This document shows, in pieces, positions 4,569-38,807 of a stretch of 64,000 nucleotides of DNA (its first letter is position 1; every line of letters begins with the position of its first letter). The position numbers were made by a program, and so were the translations under genes. This stretch comes from Ruminococcus sp. AM36-2AA (lineage in GTDB: Bacteria > Bacillota > Clostridia > Lachnospirales > Lachnospiraceae). The stretch covers positions 124,001 to 188,000 of the forward strand of contig NZ_QTYB01000004.1 in the NCBI RefSeq assembly GCF_003461955.1. Direction: 5' to 3'. The notes beneath the pieces are model-generated. The model saw nothing but the letters and a program-made list of their open reading frames with translations. It did not search any database and was not told the DNA's origin.

Positions 4569-7331
4569 TTACATGTTTTCCATGATTTTTTTGTATACCC
4601 GCCTGCAGCAGTTACGGTCATTAAATGCAAATGTATCCTCCATTCGCTTCAGATATTTCTCTTTTATCTGACAGTCAGAAGCCATATATTCAATGATCCG
4701 TTCTACCGTTCCTTCCAGTGTATCTTCCACCTCTCCAAATCCGTCCCTCTCATAATCAAAATATCCCTCTGTGTAGGAATGGGAACCGCTGAAAAAGCTC
4801 TCTCTGTCAAACTGTGCATACACGATCGGCTTCCTTAAATACGCAAAGTCAAATGCAACCGAAGAATAATCCGTGACCATCAGATCTGTCTGCGCAAAAA
4901 TCTCTCTGTAGGAACTGGAGCTATCCAGAAATTTCACCCTGGGATCTCTTCGGAACAGATGCAGTCCATCAACAGTATTCGGATGTGGCATAAAGCAGAT
5001 AGTGTAACCATATTTTTCAGAAGCTTTCAGAAGCTTTTCACTGTTCAGAAGATCATTATAAAAGCAAAAATATTCACTGTGGACGAATTCTTCTCCAAGC
5101 TTCCACACACCTCTGTCATCGGTTCCGGAGGAAAGACTTTTTCGCCAGGTAGGCATAATCGTCACGTATTTCCGTTCCGCATGGACCAGCCTGTCAAATC
5201 TTGGCATACCAGTAAGCCATACATTCTTTGCCGGATAATAGTAATCATAATTGAATATGGAATCATACTCCTGCTTCGTATTTACCACAAACCCAAACAG
5301 ATTCCGGTTATATTTATTCAGCCACTGAGACTGATTATCTTTCGTCACTCCATGCTGCAAAAATACCAGTTTCTTATTGTACATCAGATCCCGGTAAAGA
5401 TACTCGAAACTTCCAAATGGATTCACTACGGTCTTATTTGCCTGAGAAGAAAGAGAAAGATCATTCAGAAGAAACAGGATTTTGTGATTCCAGGAAAAAG
5501 GCTCCACAATTTTTCCAAGTTTCACCAGTTCCCGGCTCTCCGGTGTATTTTTACTGATAACAAAATATGGTTTCACCCCGGAAACCGGATTTTCACAGAC
5601 ATAGCGGAACATAACCTCTCCGTTATCATCTCCCCGGTTGACTCGATCCGAGAACAGCCAGATCTGTTTTTTCTTCCTTGCACGTTTCCATGCACAGAGC
5701 CAGCGTACAAAAAAGGCTTTTTTTCCGGGAAGTCCCTGTAACAGTAAAGCACGGTCACGTTTCCATCCAAGTATCAGGGTCCTGCCTATTCGATAAGGTT
5801 TTACACAGATCTCATATTGCTCCTGGATTTGATCTTCGTTCTGTTCTTCCAGTGAAGAAATGGATCTTTTTTTTCCGGCAGGCAGCAACAGCATTCCCCT
5901 TACATGCAGAAAAAGAGGAACCGCTTTGGCAAATGGTGTATATTTTCCGTAAGAAACATTATACATCTTCCTGATATGACCCTGCTCTTTTTCCGCCCAG
6001 CAAACAGAATCGTGAATTCCCCCATAAGGAATATCCACCAGATACAGCTTCTCTGTCGCTGTTTCCTTCCTGCACCACCCGAATCGATCCAGTGTATATC
6101 TCCAGACTGCTTTATATCTTCGTTCTCCGGTTATCATGCAGAACTCCCGGTTCCTTATCCATGGTTCCACAACCGAAAACTCACAGTGTATTCCCTCATC
6201 TGTAAGCTGGAAAATCCTGACATTCAGCTCATCCTGTTCTGAATTTATAACAGCCTCTGTCTGTCTGGGATATCTTTTATTTATATCCGGAAAATATTTA
6301 TGAAGCAGATAAAGTTTATTTTCTCTTCCTATGTGATGGCTGAATATGATAAGTTCCGGAAATTCCAGATGTTTCAGAAATTCATCAATATTTCTTTCAT
6401 AGGAAATCAGCTCCACATGTTCCGGATTCCGGAATATCACTTCTGCCAGTTTTGTATAATAATACAGAAGCACATAATCACCATTCTTCACAAACCGGAT
6501 TTTTCCCTGCTTTCTGTATTCTTCAAGCCTTTTCAAAAAACGCTCGTAAAACATCCCTGTCTGCTCAGTATCCTGTATAAGATTCTCCCATTCATCCCTG
6601 ATAAAATGCTCCGCAGGAATCTGCACCCGGGCATTTTCCCCGGAAATTACCGAAATTTTCCCGCAGGATACCGCATTTCTGTATACCATTTCCATGATAT
6701 CCAGATACCAGGTATCCTTTCTGATTTCTTTTGTCCATTTCAGTTTTTCTGTAACAAATGTATATGCCGGATACATCTGATGCAACAGACAGGCATGATC
6801 GTCCAGTGTTGCATCTTTTCCAAAAGAGTCACAGTAATTATTATGCTCTTTTACCGGCAAACTGTCTTTTCCGTCAATTTTTATCACAGCTACATCACTG
6901 CCTTCTTCCTGAAAGCAACGCTGCAGTTCCCGGAATGCCTCTTTTGAAAAACCATTTCCGCCTCTTACAAATGTAATATAAGTTCCGGTAATCTGACTGT
7001 AAAGTTCACTGGCAATATCCTGACACTCTGATCCGTCAATATAGATCAGTTTCGGATCTTTCAACATTTCCCGAAAACGCTTATCTTTCATTTGAAATGG
7101 ACCAAATTTCTCATCCATCGCCTGTGCCTGAAGAGTTTTCTCCTTTTCTCCAAGAAGCTGCAGTTCTTTCAGATCACTCTGGCTGAACTGATCTGCATTC
7201 CCTTCCACACGTACCGCCAGGATCTGTATGGTATCTGCCAGTGGATTCTGTTTTATATTTCTGTATGTTCTGTATAATCCTGATGTATTTTTAGCAAAAA
7301 CAACAACTGAAAAATCATCTTCTCTGGTCAT
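4569..7331 (-). CDS. CDP-glycerol glycerophosphotransferase family protein with N-terminal GT-like domain
   Basis: 920 residues. About residues 5-220 look like a GT-A type fold (FSVVVFAKNTSGLYRTY, ITGTYITFVRGGNGF). About 540-910 are a CDP-glycerol:polyol glycerophosphotransferase domain, with KLVFLQHGVT, WLTGMPRFDRL, MVTDYSSVAFDFAYLRKPIV and a final SHSYTEGYFDY. TagB/TagF-type enzymes transfer polyol phosphates in teichoic acid synthesis at the inner membrane face. The start has GGGAGAAAT before ATG. It lies 85 nt downstream of a second such enzyme. No tagD/tarI nucleotide gene lies nearby, so the donor (CDP-glycerol, CDP-ribitol or other) is open. Confidence 0.82.
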   Translation of the reverse strand: MTREDDFSVVVFAKNTSGLYRTYRNIKQNPLADTIQILAVRVEGNADQFSQSDLKELQLLGEKEKTLQAQAMDEKFGPFQMKDKRFREMLKDPKLIYIDGSECQDIASELYSQITGTYITFVRGGNGFSKEAFRELQRCFQEEGSDVAVIKIDGKDSLPVKEHNNYCDSFGKDATLDDHACLLHQMYPAYTFVTEKLKWTKEIRKDTWYLDIMEMVYRNAVSCGKISVISGENARVQIPAEHFIRDEWENLIQDTEQTGMFYERFLKRLEEYRKQGKIRFVKNGDYVLLYYYTKLAEVIFRNPEHVELISYERNIDEFLKHLEFPELIIFSHHIGRENKLYLLHKYFPDINKRYPRQTEAVINSEQDELNVRIFQLTDEGIHCEFSVVEPWIRNREFCMITGERRYKAVWRYTLDRFGWCRKETATEKLYLVDIPYGGIHDSVCWAEKEQGHIRKMYNVSYGKYTPFAKAVPLFLHVRGMLLLPAGKKRSISSLEEQNEDQIQEQYEICVKPYRIGRTLILGWKRDRALLLQGLPGKKAFFVRWLCAWKRARKKKQIWLFSDRVNRGDDNGEVMFRYVCENPVSGVKPYFVISKNTPESRELVKLGKIVEPFSWNHKILFLLNDLSLSSQANKTVVNPFGSFEYLYRDLMYNKKLVFLQHGVTKDNQSQWLNKYNRNLFGFVVNTKQEYDSIFNYDYYYPAKNVWLTGMPRFDRLVHAERKYVTIMPTWRKSLSSGTDDRGVWKLGEEFVHSEYFCFYNDLLNSEKLLKASEKYGYTICFMPHPNTVDGLHLFRRDPRVKFLDSSSSYREIFAQTDLMVTDYSSVAFDFAYLRKPIVYAQFDRESFFSGSHSYTEGYFDYERDGFGEVEDTLEGTVERIIEYMASDCQIKEKYLKRMEDTFAFNDRNCCRRVYKKIMENM

Positions 7332-7416
7332 ATTTCTCCCATCTTATCCATTCCCGGTGCAGACAACTCTTTCTACCGCTTATTTATCCAGGCATCTGCG
7401 TAGAGAACTGATCTGC

Positions 7417-9078
7417 TCAAAAATTTATATCTTTTCTTCTTTTTTTCAGCTTACTGGGAATGTGCGCTCTGACAATCGCTTCGTAAATACGTTTGCTGTT
7501 ATTGTGATCCCGGTACGGAAGAAGAGTATCTCTTCGCTTTGCATATTCCGGTTTCTCCTGGAAGTTGTTTTTCACATAGGATTCTATGGTATCCAGAAGC
7601 TCCTCTTCTGTCCATGCCAGATCCCCGAAAACATCTTTTCTGTAATCTACATAACTTCCGTGGGCCTTCTCGTAAGTTTCCAGATCAAAAGGATAAAAAA
7701 CTACCGGTTTCCCCTGATAATAAACTTCCCAGGAAACAGAAGAATAATCTGTGATCAGCATATGACAGCTCATCAGAAGCTGGTTTAACGGCACAGTTCC
7801 AAAGGGGATCAGCCGGATGTGTCTGTCCTCCGTATAAAAGTTTCCGAGACGCTCCCGAAACTTGGCATGAATATAAAAATTCAGCGTGATATTCTCTCTT
7901 TCCAGGATCGTCCTCAGCCGTTCATCCTGCAAAAGTGTTTCATATCTCTGATAATATTCACTTTTACGGAATGCTTCTTCACTGATATCTTCCAGCCAGT
8001 TTCTCCACGTAGGCATCAGAAGGATCTCTTTATGTGCAGGGTCCGACCGGTCTTCCAGAACATCCCATCTGGAAAAGCCGGTTACAATCACTTCTTCCTT
8101 ATCATAACCAAAATATTTCTCTATGATCTTCTGCTCCGGTTCTGAAGTTACCACAAACAACGCCATCTGGTTTCCACAGTTTTTGCGATAGGTTTTATGA
8201 CACTGTTTAAATGCGGTGACACCATGCTGCAGAAAAATAATATTTTTTCTGGCCTGATACTGAAGCTTATAAACACTGATCGGAGAATCCCAGATATAAA
8301 AATGCCGGATCGCATCTGTGGAAATAAGATACTGAGCCGCACTGAGATAGATCATGTATTTAAATGACATGAACTGGATCACATTCGGTTCATATTTCTT
8401 TACAGCCTGATAATCCGAACTATTTTTATCTATTACATAAAGGATCTTTTTTCGTTGTTCTTCCGGTACCTGTTCCATACAGTACCGGAAGAAATAAAAA
8501 CCGTTGTCCTGTGCCATCGTGCAGTATTTCTCGCCTACAAGCCACAATTTCTTATGGTCCCAGTAGGGCTTCAGGATAAAATAACACAAAAGAGCCAGAA
8601 ATTCTTTCATAAGGAACAGATAGCTGTCGTATTTTCGGTCATATTTCCGGTATTGAAGATTAAACTGCCGCTTCCCGTTGACAAAGGGATAGATCATATT
8701 TCCGCCATTTGTTCTTGTCCATCTTGGAAAAAAGATCAGTTTCAGTTTCAGAAATATACTTAATCCACCCAGGATCGCATCATAAGTTTCCCCACTGCCG
8801 CTGTCAACAACAGCCACAACATCCCAGAATGCCCGCTCCATAGGATAGGCATTTACATTGATCTCCGCCCGATAGACAGTTCTGTTTCCTCTGGATCTCG
8901 TGTGTAGTATAAACGGATAGCTGACATCCATGATCTCATTTCGCAGTTTCAGTTTCAAAGACCGGATCTGTCCCTTTTCCTCCGGCAGTTCAAAACAGAT
9001 CTTTATGGTTCCTTTTTTCAGGGAAAATCTTTTGGTTTTTACTTTGATCTCAGCCGAAGCTTCCTTGAAATCCTGCAT
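7417..9078 (-). CDS. CDP-glycerol glycerophosphotransferase family protein
   Basis: 553 residues. The N-terminal 120 form a beta-rich accessory domain. The C-terminal part, about 200-540, shows the polyol-phosphate transferase landmarks IIFLQHGVTAF, VIVTGFSRWDVL, LMPTWRNWLED, MLITDYSSVSWEVYYQGKPVV and AHGSYVDYRKDVFG. The likely role is priming or extending a polyol-phosphate glycopolymer in the cytoplasm at the membrane. It starts 17 nt after the lipoprotein stop and is followed by a longer paralogue, so the two may act in sequence as TagB/TagF do. Family certain; substrate inferred. Confidence 0.83.
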   Translation of the reverse strand: MQDFKEASAEIKVKTKRFSLKKGTIKICFELPEEKGQIRSLKLKLRNEIMDVSYPFILHTRSRGNRTVYRAEINVNAYPMERAFWDVVAVVDSGSGETYDAILGGLSIFLKLKLIFFPRWTRTNGGNMIYPFVNGKRQFNLQYRKYDRKYDSYLFLMKEFLALLCYFILKPYWDHKKLWLVGEKYCTMAQDNGFYFFRYCMEQVPEEQRKKILYVIDKNSSDYQAVKKYEPNVIQFMSFKYMIYLSAAQYLISTDAIRHFYIWDSPISVYKLQYQARKNIIFLQHGVTAFKQCHKTYRKNCGNQMALFVVTSEPEQKIIEKYFGYDKEEVIVTGFSRWDVLEDRSDPAHKEILLMPTWRNWLEDISEEAFRKSEYYQRYETLLQDERLRTILERENITLNFYIHAKFRERLGNFYTEDRHIRLIPFGTVPLNQLLMSCHMLITDYSSVSWEVYYQGKPVVFYPFDLETYEKAHGSYVDYRKDVFGDLAWTEEELLDTIESYVKNNFQEKPEYAKRRDTLLPYRDHNNSKRIYEAIVRAHIPSKLKKRRKDINF

Positions 9079-15597: not shown

Positions 15598-15653
15598 AAG
15601 TGAGCAGTCGACGAACGGAGCTAAACAAAGCGAAGTAAGCCGGTTGACAAAAT

Positions 15654-15737
15654 GCAGGAATGGCGGAATTGGCAGACGCGCAGGCTTCAGGTGCCTGTGG
15701 TCGCAAGATCGTGTGGGTTCAAGTCCCATTTCCTGCA
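15654..15737 (+). tRNA. tRNA-Leu (anticodon CAG)
   Basis: An 84-nt class II tRNA. Acceptor arms GCAGGAA/TTCCTGC, D-arm GCG...CGC, anticodon stem CAGGC/GCCTG with loop TTCAGGT (anticodon CAG), a long variable arm (GGTC/GATC) and a T-arm with TTCAAGT loop all fold. The discriminator base is A. CCA is not encoded, as in many Clostridia. Confidence 0.97.
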
Positions 15738-15761
15738 TTCTTTTTTATTTTATCCAAAATC

Positions 15762-15820
15762 AAAAGGAGCTGTTGCTTCCCGGAGGAACTTTCATCCGGA
15801 AGGCAGCAGCTCTTTTATTT
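15762..15820 (+). terminator. Rho-independent terminator after tRNA-Leu
   Basis: A long imperfect stem (AGGAGCTGTTGCTTCC with GGAAGGCAGCAGCTCT) around a small loop is followed by a T-rich tract (TTTTATTTTTT). It lies 25 nt after the tRNA. Confidence 0.85.
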
Positions 15821-15925
15821 TTTCCATTTTTCCTCCACAAAATACCAGGAAAAAAGTAAAACCCGGGTCCTCTCCCATTTTCGCTATGATGTAGTCAGTT
15901 CAAAGAACAACACATTTCCAAAACA

Positions 15926-15953
15926 AAAGGAGGACCTGATCATGAAGCCATAA
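15926..15953 (+). CDS. Three-codon minigene M-K-P-stop with strong ribosome site
   Basis: A near-perfect Shine-Dalgarno (AAAGGAGG, 15926-15933) stands 8 nt before ATG AAG CCA TAA (15942-15953). Nothing longer opens in this frame. It is either the relic of a deleted gene or a leader peptide for the two genes downstream (16011 and 16375). Proline before the stop codon is a context that slows termination. Seen: the motif and spacing. Any regulatory role is inference. Confidence 0.4.
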
Positions 15954-16010
15954 ATCTCAGACACCGATACACGTTAACTTCATTCATATTTACAACAGGA
16001 GGAAAAAATA

Positions 16011-16361
16011 ATGACAATTAGATTTAATACTTATGATTACGATGCACTTTTTGGCGCTTTCACAACATTTTTTATTATAATGGCTGGTTTTGCTATTTTA
16101 GTCTGGACTATTTTCTATTTTATAAAAAAATCCGATAAAAACAAACCTGTCTTCGCAACACGTGCAAAAATCCTTGAAAAAATCACAGATACTCTCTTCG
16201 TTGGATGGTATCTTGTAGAATTCGAAAACGGAGAACGTTTAAAACTCAGAACTTTCGAACCACGTAAAGTATTTTTTTCTGCAGGCGATATCGGAATCCT
16301 TCGCTACCAGGGAATCACCATTCTCTCCTTCCAGAAAGAAAACCGTCCACCAATGCGTTGA
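16011..16361 (+). CDS. Small single-span membrane protein, DUF2500-like
   Basis: 116 residues. About 17-41 form one membrane segment (FGAFTTFFIIMAGFAILVWT). The soluble remainder has a beta-rich domain ending in GDIGILRYQGITILSFQKE, which resembles the GDxGxLxYQGxxFxxF pattern I associate with DUF2500. ACAGGAGG precedes the ATG. It is followed after 13 nt by the PP2C phosphatase gene, so the two are one transcription unit. Function unknown; because of its position it may be a membrane partner of the phosphatase or of the kinase-TIR receptor opposite. Confidence 0.7.
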   Translation: MTIRFNTYDYDALFGAFTTFFIIMAGFAILVWTIFYFIKKSDKNKPVFATRAKILEKITDTLFVGWYLVEFENGERLKLRTFEPRKVFFSAGDIGILRYQGITILSFQKENRPPMR

Positions 16362-16374
16362 AAGGACATTTCCT

Positions 16375-17076
16375 ATGATACATGTTCGATCTTTCCGCAC
16401 TGCCGGAAAATGCCACGGATTTGACATCAGCCGGTGTCAGGATCAGATCAGAATACTTTCCGATGCCACACAGACAACCATAGTTTTATGCGACGGGGCT
16501 GGAAGCAGCCCCTATGGTGGCATTGCGGCCAGTGTAGCTGCCAGTACTCTGGCCGGAAATCTTCATCTTAATTTCGAACAGTATCTTCATGGTGCCCTTC
16601 CCGATATCCGGATGCAACTGACCAGGACTGTGGACACTGAATTAAAAAAAATGGCAAAAGAAATGCAGATCGATCCCCGGCTGCTGGCAACAACCATGCT
16701 TGCCATTTCCATAGACAATGACGGCAGATTTGTCGGTGTTCATCTGGGAGACGGCAGCATCTTGTGGAACGTTGGCAGCAGTGATCTCCTTAAGACTGTC
16801 TCTTCTCCTCAGAGAGGAGATCAGCCAAATTCAACCTATCTGACCATGAACTGCCCGCTTTTTTATTACCTGCGCTTTTATCGCTGGACAAAACCTGGTG
16901 CCAGAAGGATCATCCTCTTATCCGATGGAATGAACGGCCTGAACGCGCCACTCACTTCCGGTATCTTTTCTGTGCAGAATCAGGATCTCCTGAATCAGAA
17001 AATGATAAACACCAGAAATTTTGATGATATGAGCTATGTGCTCTGTGAGTTAGATGCTCCCTGTTCCAGGCAATGA
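16375..17076 (+). CDS. PP2C-family serine/threonine phosphatase
   Basis: 233 residues, a stand-alone metal-dependent phosphatase. Motifs in order are CQDQ near 23, VLCDGAGSSPYGGIAAS near 37-53 (metal Asp40), GVHLGDGSIL near 120, LLSDGMNG near 185 and a final NFDDMSYVL. All the acidic metal ligands of the family are present, so it should be active. It converges on the 1212-aa kinase-TIR gene with only 28 nt between the two stops. This suggests it reverses phosphorylation by that kinase. Substrate and partnership are inferred. Confidence 0.88.
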   Translation: MIHVRSFRTAGKCHGFDISRCQDQIRILSDATQTTIVLCDGAGSSPYGGIAASVAASTLAGNLHLNFEQYLHGALPDIRMQLTRTVDTELKKMAKEMQIDPRLLATTMLAISIDNDGRFVGVHLGDGSILWNVGSSDLLKTVSSPQRGDQPNSTYLTMNCPLFYYLRFYRWTKPGARRIILLSDGMNGLNAPLTSGIFSVQNQDLLNQKMINTRNFDDMSYVLCELDAPCSRQ

Positions 17077-17104
17077 CGTCAGTGCCCCGGACATTTTTGC
17101 AAAA

Positions 17105-20100
17105 TCATCCGAAAATATATGTGATATCCACCGTTTTCTCTTTTCTGTCCCCCAGGATCTGCTCCGCTTTCTCCCTCAGCTCTCTGTACCCGTAGAAAGA
17201 AATACCATAATATCTGTCGTCATCCCGTCCCAGCGCATATATCATCTCTTTCTCAAGATCCACATAAGCATAAGGAATATCCGCATACGGGTGCAGCTGA
17301 GAATTTTCATCCACAGAATAGATATTCAGTACTCTTTCCAGCCATCCGTCAAGGGAATGGACGCTTACCTGGCCCTCTCTTGTATACAGCGCCAGATATC
17401 TGCCTTTCGGATCTGCCAAAATATCTGTTTTCTGTGCAGAATCCATATCCACCACCTGTGTGGCGATATTTTTTCCGGAAGCAAGATCCCAGATTGTAAC
17501 TTTTCTGTCGCAGTATACCACCAGCTGTTCATCTTCTTTAAAAAATGCCACCAGTGGTTCCTCTGCCCCATTGCGGGAAATCGTGAAAAACGGCTCTTTC
17601 TTCTCTCCGTCATACACATCGATCGATGTATCATTTATGACTGCAAAACGCTTTGTTGACGCTCCCTGAACCCGTGTTCCTTCTGTCGTCTTCTCCACAG
17701 TTTTTTCTGTCTGAATTTTCTTTTTTATATCCTGTGCCTCTGCCGGTTTCATGGATGTATCCTGCGCGATCTGAGAAATGACCAGAAACGGCGTCCCGTC
17801 CTTCATCTGAATGATCACTTTTTTATTCGCATCATATAAAAAACCGCCAACAGAACTGTCTTCCGCGGAAAAAATCTTCTGACGATCATCCATCCAGAAC
17901 CGTTCCACACTTCCGTCCGCAAGGCCAAGCAGCACTGTACTTTCATTATACACTGCCAGTTTCACGATTGGATATGAAAAATCTTCTTCACATAATATGT
18001 TATATGTATTCCTGTCAATGATCATCAGATGTGTACCCAGGTTGACCAAGATCACGTCTGCCTTTTTTTCACTGTCAAACTGAAAATTTTCATATACTGC
18101 TGCATCTGCATACAGAGAATCTTCATACTGTGTCCGCAGATAATGGGTCGTATTTTCCCACACTCTTCCCTTTTCCATCTGATATATTGCTTCACGGTAT
18201 CTTTTTTTATCATCGATTCCACCACTTCCAAAAGGCACGTTCTCACATTCTATGGTAAGGAATTCCGAATTACTGATAAAACGGATCACGGAAACATGAT
18301 TAGCTTCCAGTGTTGTCTGTTTTCCGGTATTCAGATCAACCGTCTGAATGCCTCCGTCCCAGATATCCCCGGAAGCATAATCAAGCCAGCTGACTGCCAG
18401 AGTATTTCCGTCCGGAGAAATTGCGATGGAAGTTATATGATCCATTGCATCCACAGTCAGTCTGATCTTTTCCATGCTGTCCTGGTTCAGGTCATACCGA
18501 TACACATAAACTCCATCCAGAGACTCGCAGCCAAATACAAGCATTCCATCATGAAGTGCCCAGACCGGAGTTTCCAGCATGTTGTCCTCTTCTTTTAACG
18601 GAATCCTTTTTATACATTTCTGCTGTTCGATGTCTGTGTAGTACGCTGTGTTCTGTGAAAACAACAATATTTTTCCCTCAGAAACAAACTTTCCATCTAT
18701 AAATGCAGAAGTTTCCTCCTCCAGTTTACACTTCCACTTCAAAGACCAGTCTTCCATATTGTAAAAATATGCGATTCCCGATTCATCCAGACAGAAAAAC
18801 ACCTTTCCATCCGGACTGCTTTCACCGATATCCGTTGTATTATTTTCCAGTTCCACCTGTCTGTCCGGCCGGAAACCTTCTACGTTTCCTTCATGATGAT
18901 AACTGTACAGGGCAGAATTCAATGCATAGATCTCTTCCGGGATCACTGGTGTATCCCCTTCTTCCTGTGCTTCCAGAGCAGCCTGTAACGCTTCTTCCCG
19001 GTTTCCTTCCTTCAGAAGTTCCGCAGACAGAGCCACCTGATCCTCCGCCCGGTTTTCCATGATCCGCCGGTTCTGTTCTTCGATCCTGTGGTTTCTGTCC
19101 ATGGCAAACAGGAAAAAAGCATTTGCCATCAGCACAGCCAGAGATCCAATGACTGCATATTTCTTTATGATATAATTTCTCTGCCTCTGTTTCAGGGAAT
19201 CATATGTGGTTCCTAAGATTGGAGCCGCAATCTTTAACAGTACGTTTTTCTTTACATTTCGGAGCACCTGTTCCGGTGTTTCCCCTCTTGCATCGGCCGC
19301 AAGGACCTCTGCGGTCCTGTCACTGCCCAGCAGTTCCTTTTGGAAAACATCTTCCGGTTCTCCCTCTGTTACTACGGCAAGTATCCTGGATCTGTCATGA
19401 AATTCAAGAAATGTTTTTATTTCCAGATTAACCCAGGGGGAATCTTTGGTTTCAGAAGAGCAGATCACGATCAGCCATCCCGAATTTTTCAGTGCTTCCC
19501 GGATCTGGAGCCCAAAATCAGAACAGGATGACAGTTCCCCTTCGTCCATAAAAACCCGTCTGATCTTTTTTATTTTATTTTTACGCATCCACGGAATGTG
19601 GAAATGTTCCAGTTTCTGCTGAAGTATTTTTGCAGCCTGGCTGTCCGTTTTCCCATGACGATAGCAGATAAACGCATCATATACAACCTGGGAAAGATCG
19701 CTTTTATACGGCTGCAGCGCATGAATAAGATCCGATACATCTGCCAGCATTTCTTCACAGGAATGATATCGCTCCTCCGGCGTTTTCTTTAACGCTTTCG
19801 AAATGATCTGATGGACTTTATCCGCCATATGAGCCGGACAGTTCAGCTTTTTCAGTTTTCTTTTTGAGAGATACAGGCCGATATTCGCGGAGTCAAGCTC
19901 CCTCTGAGTGTATCTCTTTCCGGTCAGCATCAGAAGAAGCAGATATCCCACGCTGTACAAATCCGATTCTGCTCCCAGCCTCAGAGTTCCATCATTTCTC
20001 CCGACAATCTCCGGAGACTCAAATCCGATGGTGGAAAACAATGCCCTGTCACGGATCGCAGGACATAATCCATCCTCACAGACAGGTCTCGCCGCTCCAA

Positions 20101-20743
20101 AATCCACCAGAGAAACAAGCTTATCTTCCTCTGAGAGGCTTCCTTTTATAAATACATTTCCGTCCTGGATATCCAGATGGAGAAAACCTGCTTCATGAAC
20201 TTCTTTCACCGCGAATAATACCTGTTTTATGATCTGAAATGCCTGGACAACCGAAAATTTTTCTCCCTGGGAAAGATAAGATTTCAGTGCTTTTCCTTTG
20301 GATTCCAGTGATGTCATGATTGTAACAGTGTTATTTACCAGATGAAAAGTATGTCCCTCATCAAAAGAGAGCTCAACTTCCCCGGAAGCGCTGATGACGG
20401 GAATCGTTCTGGCAGCGGTATTGTAAATTTTCCCTGTTATCTCCTGCTCCTGCATCTGCATTTTTTTGACAGAATCCAGATAACGGACGGATGCCGGATC
20501 TTCTGACGCAGATACGATCTCACCATCTTCTCTTCTCTCAAAAACAAACGCAGCTGACAGCGGAAAACACTCTTTTAACGCATAGTCAATTTCACTGACT
20601 GTAATTTTCCCATCAAGATAAGATATTTTTTTACATGGGTATACAATACTTCCGCCGCCTTCTCCGATAGGTTTTCCGGTAATTTTATACAGTTCACCCT
20701 GGGATAAACGGATCCATGTTCCTTCCTGCAGTACTTTTCGCAT
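17105..20743 (-). CDS. Ser/Thr kinase - TIR - transmembrane - beta-propeller receptor-like protein
   Basis: 1212 residues from the ATG at 20743 (AAAAAGG upstream, 20 nt after the preceding stop). Residues about 20-340 are a protein kinase domain: glycine loop GEGGGSIVY (27-35), Lys57 in YALKE, catalytic HLDIQDGN (189-196; HRD is HLD and the usual Lys is Gln), DFG at 214-216 and SPE at 243-245. About 354-470 are a TIR domain (YDAFICYRHGKTD, RRVFMDEGELS, then SPWVNLEI with Glu441 as candidate NADase residue). One membrane helix spans 527-547 with positive charges before it, so kinase and TIR should be cytoplasmic. A helical stretch (550-620) precedes a WD40-like propeller to the end (SPDGKVFF, SPDGNTLAV). 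The architecture suggests a surface sensor coupled to two intracellular effectors. Confidence 0.85.
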   Translation of the reverse strand: MRKVLQEGTWIRLSQGELYKITGKPIGEGGGSIVYPCKKISYLDGKITVSEIDYALKECFPLSAAFVFERREDGEIVSASEDPASVRYLDSVKKMQMQEQEITGKIYNTAARTIPVISASGEVELSFDEGHTFHLVNNTVTIMTSLESKGKALKSYLSQGEKFSVVQAFQIIKQVLFAVKEVHEAGFLHLDIQDGNVFIKGSLSEEDKLVSLVDFGAARPVCEDGLCPAIRDRALFSTIGFESPEIVGRNDGTLRLGAESDLYSVGYLLLLMLTGKRYTQRELDSANIGLYLSKRKLKKLNCPAHMADKVHQIISKALKKTPEERYHSCEEMLADVSDLIHALQPYKSDLSQVVYDAFICYRHGKTDSQAAKILQQKLEHFHIPWMRKNKIKKIRRVFMDEGELSSCSDFGLQIREALKNSGWLIVICSSETKDSPWVNLEIKTFLEFHDRSRILAVVTEGEPEDVFQKELLGSDRTAEVLAADARGETPEQVLRNVKKNVLLKIAAPILGTTYDSLKQRQRNYIIKKYAVIGSLAVLMANAFFLFAMDRNHRIEEQNRRIMENRAEDQVALSAELLKEGNREEALQAALEAQEEGDTPVIPEEIYALNSALYSYHHEGNVEGFRPDRQVELENNTTDIGESSPDGKVFFCLDESGIAYFYNMEDWSLKWKCKLEEETSAFIDGKFVSEGKILLFSQNTAYYTDIEQQKCIKRIPLKEEDNMLETPVWALHDGMLVFGCESLDGVYVYRYDLNQDSMEKIRLTVDAMDHITSIAISPDGNTLAVSWLDYASGDIWDGGIQTVDLNTGKQTTLEANHVSVIRFISNSEFLTIECENVPFGSGGIDDKKRYREAIYQMEKGRVWENTTHYLRTQYEDSLYADAAVYENFQFDSEKKADVILVNLGTHLMIIDRNTYNILCEEDFSYPIVKLAVYNESTVLLGLADGSVERFWMDDRQKIFSAEDSSVGGFLYDANKKVIIQMKDGTPFLVISQIAQDTSMKPAEAQDIKKKIQTEKTVEKTTEGTRVQGASTKRFAVINDTSIDVYDGEKKEPFFTISRNGAEEPLVAFFKEDEQLVVYCDRKVTIWDLASGKNIATQVVDMDSAQKTDILADPKGRYLALYTREGQVSVHSLDGWLERVLNIYSVDENSQLHPYADIPYAYVDLEKEMIYALGRDDDRYYGISFYGYRELREKAEQILGDRKEKTVDITYIFG

Positions 20744-20763
20744 TGTTTTTTCCTTTTTCTCAT

Positions 20764-22404
20764 TCACACTTCTTCTACGTTTCCATATCCGGATTCCAGC
20801 CACATATCACTTAAATTCTCGGTTTTTCCATCCCATGACAGCCCCGGTGTTCCTATCCCCTCCGCCACAAGCGCATAAAGAACAAACCGGTCCAGAGGAA
20901 ATGGCGGATACAGTGGTTCAAAAGAAAACATCATCAGAAATCCATTGATGCAGCTGATATAACCTTCTATTTTTTCGTATTCATCCCAGCTGTCAACAAC
21001 ATCTTCCAGCTGCCCGAGAATGTTTTCCATATTTTCAGAAAAATGTTTTTCTTCGTTTGCTTCTGCCATTTCATAAAGTTCATTCCGTAAATCTTCATTT
21101 TCATTTCTTGAATATCCGGAAATAAAAAGATACGCAAGCAACAGTATATCTTTACGTTCAACAATGACCGCATTGTCCGGTTTTTCCACAAAGCGTCTGA
21201 TTGCTCCCAGACGGTTGCTTCTCTCATAAGCCTTACACACAAGATAAATTTCTTTATTAAATGGTATATTGTCATGTTTCGTCTTCAGACTTCCATGTGA
21301 TGGCAGGCCAAGCTCCCCGGGTTCTGCAAACTGCCAGCCATGAGCACACATAAATGCTCTGGCCAGACTTCCCATATCCGGATAACCATCTTCCGCGATC
21401 TCAACTTTAACCTGGTTATCTCCGGAATTTGAAACCTTTCCGACTGCATCGTTTCTGCGGTCACCTTTGTGATATGCCCAGTAATCGTAAGTTGGATACA
21501 GTTTTACAAGATAGCGTGTCAGTTCCATCAGGTCTTTTCTTCGCTGCAGGGAGTATCCGGAATAGTAAACAGAAAGATTATCCGATACCACTTTTTTCGT
21601 TTTTTTATCTTTCTTCACGAGGATTTTTCGTCTGGTAAACTCTGGATCTACAGAATACATATATTCGATCAGTTTGTCTTCCATATCTTCCCGCTCAGAT
21701 TCCGGAACACTGATACCGGCCAGTTCCGGTATATGGTTACTGATCATTCTGGTCATGCCGATATTTCCCACAGTCTGCGTTATCCCGCCATCTTCTGCAT
21801 CCTGTGGTCTGTTCTGTTCATATTTTTTGAGTATGCTTTTAACTTTAGTCCAGTCACCCTGGGGACGCAGCATTTTACAGAACAGGCAGATACAGTCCAG
21901 CGGATTTCTTACGCTGAACGGTTCGTGTCCACAGGCAAGGAGAAATTTTGTCGTAGTATAATCATCCATATTTAAAAGGAAAGACAGTTTTACCGCAAGT
22001 TCTCTTTTTCTGGGATATTTTTTGTCACTGAGCCATTGAAACCATTCGATTGCCTTCACTACCTCGTTCTGTTCCTTTAACATATATTTTTCCAGCCTGG
22101 AACTCAGATTCTTAAGAAATTTCTCCGGCCATGGGACATTGTTATTTACGGTCAGATCTTCATAGGATTCCCCTGTTTCTTCGGAAGCATCACGCAAAAG
22201 TTCAGAAAAAGATGCCTGTATCTGCCTTCTCATCAAAAATCCGGCTGTACAGAGATTTCTGGCATCGTTCAGGCTCCTGACAACAGCCATCGGATCGTTC
22301 ATCAGTTCTTCACTCATATCTGCCAGTTCTTTCGTCCATATATCCATTGATTCTTCTGCCTGTCTTGTGAGACTGTTCTCATATTGAAGGCAAGTATTTT
22401 CCAT
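20764..22404 (-). CDS. Unrecognised 546-aa protein with HTH-like segment, partner of the kinase-TIR gene
   Basis: The start is ATG 22404 with AAAGGA upstream; the longer frame has no site. There is no signal peptide or membrane helix, so it should be cytoplasmic. Residues about 131-178 (KRELAVKLSFLLNMDDYTT, then EPFSVRNPLDCICLF) resemble the degenerate helix-turn-helix pattern of small Firmicute XRE-like proteins, in which a short helical pair precedes an RNPxD motif. Near the C-terminus EPLYPPFPLDRFVLYAL repeats the same pattern. The gene ends 20 nt before the kinase-TIR start, so the two are co-transcribed. Function unknown; it may be a kinase substrate or regulator. Confidence 0.7.
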   Translation of the reverse strand: MENTCLQYENSLTRQAEESMDIWTKELADMSEELMNDPMAVVRSLNDARNLCTAGFLMRRQIQASFSELLRDASEETGESYEDLTVNNNVPWPEKFLKNLSSRLEKYMLKEQNEVVKAIEWFQWLSDKKYPRKRELAVKLSFLLNMDDYTTTKFLLACGHEPFSVRNPLDCICLFCKMLRPQGDWTKVKSILKKYEQNRPQDAEDGGITQTVGNIGMTRMISNHIPELAGISVPESEREDMEDKLIEYMYSVDPEFTRRKILVKKDKKTKKVVSDNLSVYYSGYSLQRRKDLMELTRYLVKLYPTYDYWAYHKGDRRNDAVGKVSNSGDNQVKVEIAEDGYPDMGSLARAFMCAHGWQFAEPGELGLPSHGSLKTKHDNIPFNKEIYLVCKAYERSNRLGAIRRFVEKPDNAVIVERKDILLLAYLFISGYSRNENEDLRNELYEMAEANEEKHFSENMENILGQLEDVVDSWDEYEKIEGYISCINGFLMMFSFEPLYPPFPLDRFVLYALVAEGIGTPGLSWDGKTENLSDMWLESGYGNVEEV

Positions 22405-22482
22405 GTGTTTTCGTTTCCTTTCCCTGTAAAAAATACAGCAACAGGCTCCCTTTCTCTCAGGAGCCTGCCACATCTCAAATAT

Positions 22483-31448: not shown

Positions 31449-33308
31449 TCATCCCTTCTTCTTTCCCATTCCCGGAAGAGGCTTCAGGGAATAATTCCAT
31501 TTTGACAGAGAAAGATTTTTGTTATAGTACGGATCTCCGTTTTTGAGGATGTCTATCCAGTGAGAACGGATATATTCGATTTCCGACTGGAATCGACGGA
31601 CTTTTTCCTCACTGTCCTCCGCACCTCTTGATTTGGACTCATAATGATAAAGTTTCACGTACGGATCATAGACGATCAGATGGCCGTGGCTTCTCACTTT
31701 CAGGCAGAGATCTACATCATTAAATGCTACCGCGAGTTCTTCTGTAAAGCCACCGGCTTCCAGAAAAACATTTTTTTTCATCATCATGCAGGCAGCTGTC
31801 ACACAGCTCATATCCTGCAGAAGGGATGCTTTATGCAGATATCCTGTACGTTCTGCCGGCATATTTACAAACATATGTCCCGCAATGCCGCCCATTCCCA
31901 CCACACAGCCTGCATGCTGGATGGTATTGTCCGGATAGATCAGTTTAGCCCCGACAGCTCCTACTTCCTGTCGCTGGCAGACACCAAGCATCTCCGAAAG
32001 CCAGTCCGGATCGATCACTTTCACATCATTATTCAGGAAAAGCAGATAATCCCCCTTTGCATGGCGCACGCCAAAATTATTGATGGCAGAATAATTGAAT
32101 TCTTTTTTCCAGCGGAGCAGATGGATCCTCGGGTCTTCAGAAAGCTTCCGGTAGTAACGGAAGATCTCGTCGGAACTGCTGTTATTCTCCACGATAATGA
32201 TCTCATAATTCTTATAGACAGTTTTTTCAAAAATGGATTCCACGCAGGCCTGAAGGGTTTCTTTTTCTTCCCGGTTGGGGATGATAATGGACACCAGCGG
32301 TTCCCCCTGCACCGGATATTTCACACGGTAAAATCCGAAATCCGGGGTATGCTCCACAGTTCCCGGAGTTCCGGTTCGTTCAAGATTTCCCTCAATGGCA
32401 CGCTTTCCTGCCTCAAAAGCATACATCTTGCTTGCCGGGTTATCCGCTGTGGAGGATTTGTGGGTTCTCCAGTGGTAAAGGATCTCCGGTACATGGATGA
32501 CCTCACGTGCCTGTTCCACACAGCGGAAAATAAAATCATAGTCCTGCGCTCCGTCAAATTCTCTGCGGAAACCTCCGGCTTTCTGCACAACTGAACGTCT
32601 CACAACCAGAAAATGACAGATATAATTGTTGGATCTTAAAAGGTCCAGGTTAAAATCCGGTTTCAGATGTGGCTGAAAATGCTCGGACAGATCTGTTGTG
32701 ACCTTATCTTCATCGGTATAGATCACATCTGCCTCCGGATGTTCCTCCAGTGCAGCTGCGATCTCATACAGAGCATTGGGTGCAAGCAGATCATCATGAT
32801 CCAGAAGTGCGATAAAATCTCCTCTTGCCATGGCAAAGGCTGCATTGGTATTCTCAGCGATACCGAGATTTTCCTTCAGATCTTCATAGCGGATCCTTTT
32901 ATCCATCTCTGCATAGGATCTCAGTACAAGCTGCATATCCGGATCTTCCGGACTGCCATTTGCGAGACAGAGTTCCCAGTTCTGATATGTCTGGGCAAGC
33001 AGAGAATCAAGCATCTGTCTTAAGAACCTCTCCGGTGTCAGATATGCAGGCACTACAATACTGATCAGCGGGCCATCCGGAAATTTCCTCTTTCGCTGCT
33101 TCTCAAGAGTCTCTTCGGTTGGCCTGTATGCCTCATACCACGGTCCGTAGGGAACTTCTTCCGGCTCAAAGCGTTCATGAAGCCTGATCCAGAATTCTTT
33201 CAGTCCGTAATGCTTCAGGTATCTCAAGCCCTTTTGTACTGTATAGGGAGAAAGCTTCTTCACAAGCCTGTCCCATTGAATCTTTCCTGTGGAATCATCT
33301 TTACTCAT
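31449..33308 (-). CDS. Two-domain family 2 glycosyltransferase
   Basis: 619 residues. An N-terminal helical region (1-75) is followed by two GT2-like domains. The first starts ISIVVPAYLTPERFL with ALLDHDDLLAPNAL. The second starts VSIIIPNREEKETLQA with LLFLNNDVKVIDPDW and a FNDVDLCLKVR acceptor motif. This tandem arrangement is found in enzymes of rhamnose-rich wall polysaccharide synthesis. It is first in the operon 33308-26524 and is close in organisation to the 815-residue GT at 36360-38807. Confidence 0.87.
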   Translation of the reverse strand: MSKDDSTGKIQWDRLVKKLSPYTVQKGLRYLKHYGLKEFWIRLHERFEPEEVPYGPWYEAYRPTEETLEKQRKRKFPDGPLISIVVPAYLTPERFLRQMLDSLLAQTYQNWELCLANGSPEDPDMQLVLRSYAEMDKRIRYEDLKENLGIAENTNAAFAMARGDFIALLDHDDLLAPNALYEIAAALEEHPEADVIYTDEDKVTTDLSEHFQPHLKPDFNLDLLRSNNYICHFLVVRRSVVQKAGGFRREFDGAQDYDFIFRCVEQAREVIHVPEILYHWRTHKSSTADNPASKMYAFEAGKRAIEGNLERTGTPGTVEHTPDFGFYRVKYPVQGEPLVSIIIPNREEKETLQACVESIFEKTVYKNYEIIIVENNSSSDEIFRYYRKLSEDPRIHLLRWKKEFNYSAINNFGVRHAKGDYLLFLNNDVKVIDPDWLSEMLGVCQRQEVGAVGAKLIYPDNTIQHAGCVVGMGGIAGHMFVNMPAERTGYLHKASLLQDMSCVTAACMMMKKNVFLEAGGFTEELAVAFNDVDLCLKVRSHGHLIVYDPYVKLYHYESKSRGAEDSEEKVRRFQSEIEYIRSHWIDILKNGDPYYNKNLSLSKWNYSLKPLPGMGKKKG

Positions 33309-33342
33309 ATATTTTCTCCGTATTACTCAATTTGATAAACGT

Positions 33343-33371
33343 ATTTTAACATTACCGCATTTTTTTTGCAA
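33343..33371 (-). promoter_or_regulatory. Promoter of the 33308-26524 glycan operon
   Basis: The minus strand has -35 TTGCAA (33371-33366), a 17-bp spacer and -10 TAAAAT (33348-33343). The -35 is palindromic and is also usable by the divergent plus-strand promoter. Confidence 0.75.
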
Positions 33372-33395
33372 GGAAGAGAGAAAGTGTGTTATACT
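33366..33395 (+). promoter_or_regulatory. Promoter of the carboxypeptidase-like gene, sharing its -35 with the divergent promoter
   Basis: Plus strand -35 TTGCAA (33366-33371), an 18-bp spacer and -10 TATACT (33390-33395) with an extended TG element. An 88-nt leader follows that contains an imperfect hairpin at 33408-33434. Confidence 0.7.
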
Positions 33396-33489
33396 GTGCT
33401 TACGTGTTGCTGGTCACGGAGTGAACAGTAACATTTACGTATGTATTGCTTACATAAGAATTATTTTTTATACAGGAGTACCATATATT

Positions 33490-34740
33490 ATGAAAAAATC
33501 AAGAATAACCGCGGCGCTTCTGGCCTTTGGGATCTCAGCTTCCATGGTGTTCCAGACTCCAGTTTTCGCCACAGAAGAAACCGCTGCTGCCGCCACATCC
33601 GGTATTACAACCAACTCCATCAGCGGATGGCCACAGGGGCCTGAGATCACTTCCGTATCTGCCGTAGTCATGGAAGATTCTTCCGATACCATTCTCTACG
33701 CCAAAGATATGGATACCGCGCTCTCCCCTGCCGGCGCAGTTAAGATCATGACCTGCCTTCTGGCGCTGGAGAACAGCCAGTTAACCGATCAGGTGACAAT
33801 GACAGAAACCGGTGTATCCGGTGTCACCGACGGAGGCGCCCATATTTCCTCACAGCTCGGAGAAGTTTTTACCATGGAGCAGTGCCTCTATGCGATCATG
33901 CTGGCTTCTGCCAATGATATTGCCCTTCAGGTTGCAGAACAGATCGGCGGTTCTGTGGATGCTTTTGTCCAGAAAATGAATGACCGCGCCCAGGAACTTG
34001 GTTGTACCAATACCGTATTTACCAATCCTACCGGTCTTCCGGACGATAATCAGCACACCACCGCCCACGACCTGGCTCTGATCATGCAGGCAGCAATCAG
34101 CAATGACAGTTTCCGGACAATTTCCGGAGCCACTTCCTATACCATACCGGCCACCAATGTTTCCGGCGGTGCCAGAAACCTCACCAGTTCCTTTTCCATG
34201 ACAAATCCGACTTCCGCCACTTATTACCAGGGCTGTATCGGCGGACGTGAGAGTACTACCACTACTTCCGGAAGCGTCCTGGTAACTGCGGCTGAACGCA
34301 ACAGCACCACACTGATCTGTGTTGTTATGAACGGAGCGACCGGACAGACAGCCAATGAAGCGGTTACTCTTATGGACTACGGTTTTGCCAATTTCCAGCT
34401 TCTGGATCTTTCGGAAGAAGATTTCCACATTCTGTCCGGAGGTACCGTAATGGTTCCGTCCGGTGCAACTTCGGATGATCTTACTACGGAAGATACGGAA
34501 TCCGATGGCCAGATTCTCCGCACCTATTCCTTTGGCGGAGCTCAGGTGGGAACTGCAGTGGTGGAAGACACCTCCACAGAAAGCACTACCGCAGAGGTTC
34601 AGGAAAATGATGACAATATGGATGCCGCAAAAGCTTACTCAGAATCCCGCTCTCCAATTCCTTATTTTGTGATCGGCGGCGCCGGCCTCCTGATCCTGAT
34701 CCTGCTTCTGTGGCGTATGATCAGGATTATCCGCTCCTGA
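33490..34740 (+). CDS. D-Ala-D-Ala carboxypeptidase-like protein lacking catalytic motifs (probable pseudoenzyme)
   Basis: 416 residues from ATG 33490 (AGGAG upstream; the frame is open earlier but without a site). It has a signal peptide, a peptidase S11-like domain and a C-terminal membrane helix (about 393-413), so it is membrane anchored. The family SxxK box is PAGAVK: the nucleophile Ser is Gly82, while Lys85 remains. The SAN motif is intact (140-142). KTG is replaced by RES (253-255). The intact paralogue at 47263-48573 has SITK and KTGT. The reading frame is otherwise clean with its own promoter, so it is probably a maintained non-catalytic protein, perhaps binding wall peptides, rather than a decaying gene. 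Confidence 0.88.
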   Translation: MKKSRITAALLAFGISASMVFQTPVFATEETAAAATSGITTNSISGWPQGPEITSVSAVVMEDSSDTILYAKDMDTALSPAGAVKIMTCLLALENSQLTDQVTMTETGVSGVTDGGAHISSQLGEVFTMEQCLYAIMLASANDIALQVAEQIGGSVDAFVQKMNDRAQELGCTNTVFTNPTGLPDDNQHTTAHDLALIMQAAISNDSFRTISGATSYTIPATNVSGGARNLTSSFSMTNPTSATYYQGCIGGRESTTTTSGSVLVTAAERNSTTLICVVMNGATGQTANEAVTLMDYGFANFQLLDLSEEDFHILSGGTVMVPSGATSDDLTTEDTESDGQILRTYSFGGAQVGTAVVEDTSTESTTAEVQENDDNMDAAKAYSESRSPIPYFVIGGAGLLILILLLWRMIRIIRS

Positions 34741-36359: not shown

Positions 36360-38807
36360 CTATATCCGCTTCAGAGAGAAATCCTGACTCTCCAGTGTAA
36401 GGTTCGGGTTATAGTAAGGATCTCCGTCACGGAGGATTTCCGGCCAGTGCTTCTCAAAGGAAGCGATCTCACGGTTAAATCTTGCCACTTTCTCCGGCGT
36501 ATCCTCAAGACCTCTGGATTTGGACTCATAGTGATAAAGCTCCGCATAAGGATTGTACACAACCAGATATCCGGCTTTTCCAAGACGGAGGCAGAAATCA
36601 ATATCATTAAAAGCAACCTGGAATTCTTCGCTTAATCCGTGAACCTTGTCAAAAGCCTCACGTTTTACCATCATGCAGGCAGCTGTCACCGCACTGTAAT
36701 CCTGGGCACAGATGATCCTGTGGCAGTATCCCGTAGCGTCCCTCTTCTGCTGCACAAAGCAGTGTCCCGCAATGCCGCCGAAACCAATGACCACACCTGC
36801 GTGCTGCACAGTATCATCCTCATAATAGAGACGCGCTCCCACAGCTCCAACATCCGGTCTCATACAGTATCCCAGAAGCTGTTCCAGACAGTCCGGACTG
36901 ATGATCTCCGTATCGTTGTTGAGAAGAAGCAGATACTCACCTTTGGCATGAGAAGCACCGAAATTGTTGATGGCGGAATAGTTGAAAATGCCATCCCAGT
37001 ACACCACATGAGCCTTCGGATTGGAGGCTTCCAGCTCTTTATAATAAGCGAATGTCTCATCTTCCGTACTGTTGTTCTCCACGATCACATACTCATAATT
37101 GCGGTAAGTCGCTTTTTCTTCGATGGAATCAATACATCTCTTCAGATCATCGATGTGATCTTTGTTCGGGATGATAATGGAGATCAGCGGTTTTTCCTCC
37201 CAGAGGAATTTCGTGCGGTAAAGACCAAGATACTCGCCCTTCTCGATCTCTACCGGAACACCGATCCTGTCATAATGAGCTTTAATGGCACGTGCGCCTG
37301 CGTCAAAGGCGTACATCTTGCTTTCCGGATTCTCTGCTGTGGAATCCTCATGGCATCTCCAGTGATAAAGGATCCTCGGGATATGATGGATCTTCTCTCT
37401 TCCCGCAGCTTCCACGCAGCGGAATACAAAATCGTAATCCTGTGCGCCGTCGAATTCTTTCTTCAGCATTCCGATCTGATCCACGATCTCTTTTTTTACA
37501 ACAAAAAGATGGCAGATGTAGTTTACTGTACACAAAAGATCGATATTGAAGTCCGGTTTGAAATGAGGCTGGAAAAATTTATGGCCATCCATGGACATCT
37601 TATCCTCGTCTGAATACAGGACCTCGATCTCCGGATTTTCATTCAGTGCCTTCACGCACTGGAACAGGGCATCCGGTGTCATCTCATCATCATGATCTGC
37701 AAACACGATAAAATCTCCGGTTGCCGCTTCCATGGCCGCATTGGTATTCTCCGCGATCTGAAGTGCCTGGTCATTGCGGATCACCCGGATTCTTTCATCA
37801 CTTTTTTCCAGTCCGGCAAGATAATCGGTAAGAGGAGAGTCCACTCCGCTTCCATCCGAAAGACAAAGCTCCCAGTTTCCGTAAGTCTGGGCCTCAATGG
37901 AATCCACCAGCTGCTGGAGATATTTCTCCGGGGTCTTGTAAAGCGGGATCACAATACTGAACTTGGGATTCCAGGAAAATTTTGTTTTTCTCTCTTCCGC
38001 AAGTTCCGCCTTATCCGGCAGATGTTTCACAATCCATTTGGAATAATCCACAGGACGGTTTTTCCGGTTCATTACCTTTCCGAAAACTTTTCCGGTAAGG
38101 GCTGCTGCCCCGTGAAGTTTCATGTAGCGGCTTCCCTTCCGGAAATATACCGCGGCTTTCTCCGCAAGGCGCTTCTGTGGCTGCAGATGCACTAGACGAA
38201 GTGTCCGCACATTGCCGGCCTCAAATACAATGTAAAATTCCTTCACATTGTCATAATGGAATTCAAAGAAAAATCCGCTCTTCTCATCAATTTCTGTTTC
38301 CTGGTACTGGTTCTGCACATCCACCCGTTTCAGTCTGGTGATCTCGCAGGGGATTTCCTTCCGGCTGCGGTCTTCCAGACGAATGGTTAAGGGACGGTTA
38401 AAAGCTGCCCATCCACGGACACGGCAGATTTTTTCTGCGGATTCCACCTCAATACTTTCGATAAAGTACTGTGGTTTTCCCTGCTTCCTGTAAAGCTGCT
38501 CTGCGGAAACAGCAAACCACTGGATACGTTTTCCGCCCTTTACCGCATAGACAACAAGCTTCTTTTTGCCTTCCAGATCCGGAAGCTTTATTTCCATCTG
38601 CACACGTTCCCCGTTTACCAGATCCAGATCTTTAAAGCGCTCCAGGGCGCTGACACGCTCCTGGGCACTGATGGCAGCCGGAAGTTTTTCCCCGTCAAGA
38701 ACGGCTTCCGGCTTATGGTCTTTCGGCCAGGTTCCCTGAAGGTGATACAGGGAACTGTCCTTCAGGTCAAACCTGTCTTTTTCTACTTCGTATAGCTCTC
38801 GCTGCAT
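36360..38807 (-). CDS. Two-domain family 2 glycosyltransferase with N-terminal accessory domain
   Basis: 815 residues. About 1-230 form a beta-rich accessory region. The first GT2 domain starts FSIVIPLYKTPEKYL with FADHDDEMTPDALF; the second starts ISIIIPNKDHIDDL with LLLNNDTEIISPD and FNDIDFCLRLG. It shares the tandem GT2 plan with the 619-residue enzyme at 31449. The start codon (GGAGGAATT upstream) lies inside the preceding 1879-residue gene, overlapping its end by 25 nt, so the two are translationally coupled. It probably extends a repeat unit of the exported glycan. Confidence 0.87.
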   Translation of the reverse strand: MQRELYEVEKDRFDLKDSSLYHLQGTWPKDHKPEAVLDGEKLPAAISAQERVSALERFKDLDLVNGERVQMEIKLPDLEGKKKLVVYAVKGGKRIQWFAVSAEQLYRKQGKPQYFIESIEVESAEKICRVRGWAAFNRPLTIRLEDRSRKEIPCEITRLKRVDVQNQYQETEIDEKSGFFFEFHYDNVKEFYIVFEAGNVRTLRLVHLQPQKRLAEKAAVYFRKGSRYMKLHGAAALTGKVFGKVMNRKNRPVDYSKWIVKHLPDKAELAEERKTKFSWNPKFSIVIPLYKTPEKYLQQLVDSIEAQTYGNWELCLSDGSGVDSPLTDYLAGLEKSDERIRVIRNDQALQIAENTNAAMEAATGDFIVFADHDDEMTPDALFQCVKALNENPEIEVLYSDEDKMSMDGHKFFQPHFKPDFNIDLLCTVNYICHLFVVKKEIVDQIGMLKKEFDGAQDYDFVFRCVEAAGREKIHHIPRILYHWRCHEDSTAENPESKMYAFDAGARAIKAHYDRIGVPVEIEKGEYLGLYRTKFLWEEKPLISIIIPNKDHIDDLKRCIDSIEEKATYRNYEYVIVENNSTEDETFAYYKELEASNPKAHVVYWDGIFNYSAINNFGASHAKGEYLLLLNNDTEIISPDCLEQLLGYCMRPDVGAVGARLYYEDDTVQHAGVVIGFGGIAGHCFVQQKRDATGYCHRIICAQDYSAVTAACMMVKREAFDKVHGLSEEFQVAFNDIDFCLRLGKAGYLVVYNPYAELYHYESKSRGLEDTPEKVARFNREIASFEKHWPEILRDGDPYYNPNLTLESQDFSLKRI

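Follow-up and report, generated by a model that had tools for sequence, protein, structure and literature searches.

TerY-type groups bring together kinase, PP2C and vWA genes. The kinase PknD of Mycobacterium tuberculosis has an external propeller of six blades (PMC3601408), the GTPase-centred GAP1-N2 conflict systems described for actinobacteria link an active kinase to an active PP2C, with a vWA (PMC7159879), and plant TIR protein kinases (group 16 in a survey of TIR proteins) carry TIR and kinase in one protein (PMC7075850). Here we analyse 64,000 nucleotides of DNA from Ruminococcus sp. AM36-2AA (contig NZ_QTYB01000004.1, positions 124,001 to 188,000; hereafter the window), in which four genes beside a tRNA-Leu gene appear from sequence to be an accessory signalling cassette. 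They encode a 1212-residue receptor that joins kinase, TIR, membrane helix and propeller, a 546-residue companion protein, a PP2C phosphatase and a small membrane protein. We conclude that kinase and companion very probably constitute a conserved unit, with the PP2C as an optional partner.

The receptor resembles PknD-type receptor Ser/Thr kinases in its PknB-like kinase, one membrane helix and C-terminal external beta-propeller (PMC3601408). It differs from PknD in carrying a TIR domain (residues 355-510) between kinase and membrane, in its first propeller, which fits eight-bladed ones and is followed by a second part, and in its linked companion gene. A PknB-like kinase domain is also shared with PASTA-type PknB/StkP, whereas the full-length score for that family, 81.6 bits, stays below the cut-off of 450, and no PASTA repeats were matched among the receptor's Pfam hits. 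With Thoeris ThsB and bacterial TIR NADases the receptor has in common the ThsB_TIR Pfam family and a Glu that matches, in alignment, residue 86 of the Roq1 TIR, which we take to be the catalytic Glu of that domain; unlike them, its TIR sits in a membrane receptor, fused to a kinase. Kinase and PP2C are encoded together as in TerY-type groups but, unlike in the TerY-P triad, the companion matches no Pfam family, and none of the four cassette proteins matched a vWA in Pfam or PADLOC. GAP1-N2 conflict systems likewise link a kinase to PP2C, with no TIR-propeller receptor in the part of the source consulted (PMC7159879), and plant TIR protein kinases likewise hold TIR and kinase in one chain by domain architecture, but are plant proteins, with no membrane propeller receptor or companion in the part consulted (PMC7075850).

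In the anti-phage comparison (PADLOC-DB 2.0.0) the best 25 of the receptor's 35 matches centred on the kinase, the top one being PD-T4-6 (2e-27 over 149-349); the companion and the small membrane protein had no matches and the PP2C only weak ones. No model in Pfam, NCBIfam or PADLOC covers the receptor's kinase-TIR type and the cassette was not found described in open-licence full-text literature, in agreement with a sequence-only reading of this DNA that had called the arrangement undescribed; the kinase-TIR architecture, by contrast, is widespread beyond this genome, judging from domain matches. As far as the searches tell, the companion families, their kinase linkage and the TIR-FHA exchange (see below) are new.

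Domain search and a structure model confirmed the order of kinase, TIR, one helix and WD40-like ectodomain that had been read from the letters. By sequence and model, kinase and TIR are placed on one side of the single membrane helix and the propeller on the other; charge and domain type suggest that the propeller lies outside the cell. The modelled ectodomain comprises a propeller (618-993), which fits eight-bladed propellers, and a second part that is probably propeller-like. The ratio of nonsynonymous to synonymous substitution rates (dN/dS) rises along the receptor from 0.083 in the TIR, the most constrained domain, to 0.225 in the propeller, the least; this rise and the order sensor-helix-TIR-kinase would fit a variable sensor with a conserved output. 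The active-looking kinase and the TIR Glu441 pointed out earlier held up in an alignment of 19 kinase-TIR proteins (window, L001-L016, L113 and L114), where K57, E99, D191, N196 and D214 of the kinase and Glu441 of the TIR were present in all 19. A pattern search found a Glu motif of the same form in 64/64 kinase-less relatives. The receptor's TIR is probably enzymatic, as its sequence suggests.

Receptor relatives were sought in proteins, where 7999 candidates were scored, 495 had E up to 1e-3 and kinase and ThsB_TIR accessions occurred among the 120 matches listed, and in genome contigs, where the best 80 of at least 552 relatives were analysed as loci L001-L080. Sixteen of these loci had kinase and TIR (L001-L016), most from assemblies labelled Lachnospiraceae or Clostridia, and 64 had TIR with no kinase match (L017-L080); a kinase open reading frame (ORF) lay in the neighbouring DNA of only two of the 64. 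The window genome belongs to Blautia and is closely related to B. luti, whose receptor (L001) is ~93% identical, and L016 comes from a metagenome assembly labelled Eggerthellaceae, in which a misplaced contig is possible. Occurrence is patchy: the full receptor was present in one of 64 genomes of the genus, with a kinase-only or TIR-only match in three more, and in a family sample of 397 genomes the kinase-TIR receptor was found in six, 16 of 22 matches spanning the TIR onwards only. Some kinase-less loci (for example L020, L021, L022 and L024) resemble the receptor's propeller part too.

A companion was detected by profiles, within ~4 kb, in 15/16 kinase-TIR loci and 0/64 kinase-less TIR loci, adjoining the receptor in most of the former; in the one companion-less locus (L008) the contig ends 1.9 kb upstream of the receptor. 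Searching with the 546-residue protein returned 25 proteins including its own cluster, and at most two of 14 members scanned matched any Pfam family, weakly; a vWA identity was tried for the companion and dropped, no family having matched. Besides this family (A2), three more stand beside other kinase-TIR loci, namely A3 (~520 residues), A5 (~430) and A4 (~383). Profile comparison joined A2 to A5 (97%, 3e-11) and A5 to A3 (96%, 1e-8, nearly full length), the direct comparison of A2 with A3 being weak (15%). The companion is a member of a helical protein family that accompanies kinase-TIR receptors.

Because the companion profiles were partly built from the 16 loci, the 397-genome sample is the fairer test of linkage. 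There, a search that covered A2, A3 and A4 and scored few candidates per genome found companions (E up to 1e-10) in the same six genomes as the receptor and in no other: A2 in G001, A3 in G012 and G104, and A4 in G004, G007 and G215. G104 and G215 were independent of profile building; the other four had been used in it. Companion and receptor distances were correlated (r 0.77, n=11, 0/5000 permutations as high; in other sets r 0.86, n=7, 48/5000, and r 0.92, n=7, 6/5000), and A4 companions were confined to one receptor clade (support 1.0). Beside receptors of that clade a small protein with a YGWHNxLxPPE stretch, read from ORF starts, recurs (L004 3433-3906, L007 1462-1845, L013 5113-5583 and L113 12354-12806, the L113 copy having no Pfam match). 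In the metagenomic protein cluster P0005 (four sequences) the first ~183 residues of the 546-residue protein are joined to the receptor at about residue 16; this fusion, which lacks most of the companion, was the sole such case seen and may be a deletion or assembly product.

The window's PP2C has intact-looking CQD, CDG, SDG and DDMS stretches, which we take to be the PP2C Asp motifs. Its proposed tie to the receptor gained support from another Blautia genome, G056 (L112 7856-15210), where a 44.7% identical PP2C stands with a 546-type companion (44%), a kinase and a kinase-transmembrane-propeller gene. The first of these kinases has two FHA stretches and no TIR, making this a TIR-less version of the cassette; here the companion stands with the kinase, and the output domain is a different one. 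On the evidence of this one genome, the unit of PP2C, companion and kinase seems to predate the cassette, TIR being one of the two outputs seen. A PP2C_2 gene occurs somewhere in 15/16 kinase-TIR genomes. The small membrane protein matched only in L001 (B. luti) among the best 80 loci and has a dN/dS of 0.398. It is improbable that these two genes are chance neighbours and that companion and receptor alone belong together, as might be argued from the opposite strand of the PP2C, which converges on the receptor, from the lack of a PP2C in the examined DNA of 13/16 kinase-TIR loci (some on short contigs) and from the narrow range and dN/dS of the small protein; against this, the PP2C of G056 directly precedes the companion-kinase pair in a different gene order, and that of L009 directly precedes the receptor. 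Co-occurrence of all four genes, the check first proposed, thus divides: receptor and 546-type companion do travel together, the PP2C does so in part, and the DUF2500-like gene does not, being limited among the 80 loci and the window to the window and B. luti. Two further loci carry related genes. L004 1-3906, ahead of companion and receptor, encodes a kinase cut by the contig end, a vWA protein, a PP2C and a protein with Sel1 repeats. In L114 (7384-7980), outside the 16 loci, a weak PP2C-like ORF (E 6.5e-7) just before companion and receptor apparently lacks the DG motif and is perhaps a degenerate, inactive phosphatase.

The whole is best explained, in our judgement with a little more than even confidence, as a surface-receptor signalling cassette working as follows. 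A ligand on the propeller would cluster or twist the receptor, whereupon the kinases would phosphorylate one another and the companion, itself a scaffold or substrate; TIR domains so brought together would cleave NAD+ or yield an NAD-derived messenger, and the PP2C would undo the phosphorylation and set the threshold. Clustering, phosphorylation and reversal by PP2C are proposed because they are known of PknB-type kinases and their PP2C partners, and NAD+ cleavage because the Glu is conserved and TIR enzymes are known. The likeliest use would be a switch that halts growth or kills the cell upon an outside threat or envelope damage; a role in defence seems to us to fall somewhat short of an even case, and stress sensing is a role we infer.

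Several observations weigh against this signalling scheme. No ThsA-like effector was found among the cassette proteins, the scope of this Pfam and PADLOC search. The APE motif of the kinase deviates in L006 and L011, and the window's catalytic loop reads HLDIQDGN, with Gln at a position where most Ser/Thr kinases have Lys. A4, present at seven loci, showed no relation to A2 or A3 in profile comparison with these two, so 'companion' may cover two unrelated families. In L006, L007, L009 and L013 the companion lies 1.8 to ~4.2 kb from the receptor with other ORFs between, and the distance correlation cannot separate function from joint inheritance. G056, which is outside the 397-genome sample, has its 546-type companion without a kinase-TIR receptor, and the linkage of the companion is therefore not to TIR. 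Finally, in the examined DNA a PP2C accompanies only 3/16 kinase-TIR receptors and is thus not obligate: L001, L009 and L004, where it belongs to a kinase-vWA-PP2C group that lies 1.3 kb upstream of the companion gene.

Whether phosphorylation gates the TIR is evenly poised, and this is the least supported step of the scheme, the same TIR motif being present in relatives that lack the kinase. We consider it rather unlikely that there are instead two independent outputs, the TIR-membrane-propeller part acting alone and kinase, companion and PP2C forming a separate branch on a shared sensor, with no gating. The kinase-less TIR genes, commoner in the 397 genomes, keep the Glu motif and seldom have a kinase nearby, as such independence would have it; the single-chain fusion and the kinase-companion linkage in kinase-TIR loci favour coupling, weakly. 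Slightly less unlikely is an ordinary envelope-sensing receptor kinase, whose TIR, like that of Toll-like receptors, would have no enzyme role and would serve just to bring receptors together or attract partners; output would then come from the kinase, and the PP2C would be its counterpart, as in PrkC/PrpC-type pairs. The TIR Glu, kept in kinase-TIR and kinase-less sequences alike, and the strong constraint on the TIR both speak against this, since the TIRs of Toll-like receptors do not depend on that Glu; in its favour are the TIR-less kinase-transmembrane-propeller gene of the G056 group, the envelope polymer genes also found in the window (seven ORFs scanned) and the propeller kinase PknD (PMC3601408).

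More tentatively than the defence role, the surface-receptor cassette can be pictured as the bacterial equivalent of surface immune receptors in animals and plants, in which the propeller would sense an enemy or damage cue, the kinase-companion-PP2C circuit would set the threshold of a membrane-bound TIR, acting by NAD+ destruction or an NAD-derived signal, and the output slot would be exchangeable (TIR or FHA). If so, gut commensals would have a TIR enzyme that is controlled by reversible phosphorylation and coupled to a sensor facing outward, an arrangement whose parts are, to our knowledge, known only from separate systems. With the kinase-linked companion families defined, the circuit could be tested with a handful of purified proteins.

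Table 1. Coordinates of the cassette and its features (window positions)
Feature	Position	Strand	Basis or remark
Whole cassette, outer limits	15766..22482	.	blastn against L115, L116 and L117; ORF and tRNA content of this site
tRNA-Leu (CAG), constant flank of insertion site	15653..15738	+	ARAGORN, Rfam
Small single-pass membrane protein, weakly DUF2500-like	16011..16361	+	13 nt ahead of PP2C
PP2C phosphatase, 233 aa	16375..17076	+	PP2C_2 6.7e-22; 44.7% identical PP2C in L112
Kinase-TIR-transmembrane-propeller receptor, 1212 aa	17105..20743	-	ATG at 20743, AAGGA ahead of it
Propeller ectodomain, residues 618-1190, WD40-like	17174..18892	-	Structure model
Membrane segment, residues 530-548	19100..19156	-	Within single long predicted helix 514-578
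TIR domain, residues 355-510	19214..19681	-	ThsB_TIR 2.7e-10; profile matches to TIRs with known structures, Roq1 among them
Glu441	19421..19423	-	Aligns with residue 86 of Roq1 TIR
Kinase domain, residues 1-342, PknB-like	19718..20743	-	K57, E99, D191, N196, D214 conserved
Helical companion protein, 546 aa	20764..22404	-	20 nt upstream of receptor gene, same strand

The cassette is immediately flanked by carAB and clpX, the carAB and carA names being assigned by our own reading. On the left, blastn collinearity with sister genomes ends at 15765, 27 bases past the tRNA-Leu; the right limit lies between the companion start at 22404 and the stop of a zinc-ribbon gene (22483) beside clpX, similarity picking up again at 22495 in L116, over 33 matching bases, and forming long stretches from 22607 in L115, 22642 in L116 and 22757 in L117. 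The order carA, tRNA-Leu, zinc-ribbon gene, clpX is kept in three sister genomes (G025, G033 and G032) that share 98.9-99.4% identity with the window in CarA, and tRNA-Leu (CAG) was near the site in 12/12 relatives compared (L001 counted, L125 left out). None of the four cassette genes had a match at this site in the three sister genomes, of which G033 has a 153-residue ORF there and G032 almost nothing, or in nine further relatives. No 10-mer common to the two cassette ends was found, and the searches made found no copy of the cassette in viral contigs, plasmids or phages. Frameshift or chance ORFs were ruled out as an explanation of the cassette by the relatives and dN/dS.

At the tRNA-Leu/zinc-ribbon site of L116, L118-L124 and L126 other ORFs are present, among them the 153-residue ORF, an exported-looking protein of ~500 residues and a polymer-type gene run (L122); the site therefore looks like a variable spot. 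Elsewhere in the window, envelope polymer genes lie at 4569-9078, 33289-34740 and 36360-44422 and include two glycerophosphotransferases, a D-Ala-D-Ala carboxypeptidase and long multi-domain glycosyltransferases (1879 and 815 residues).
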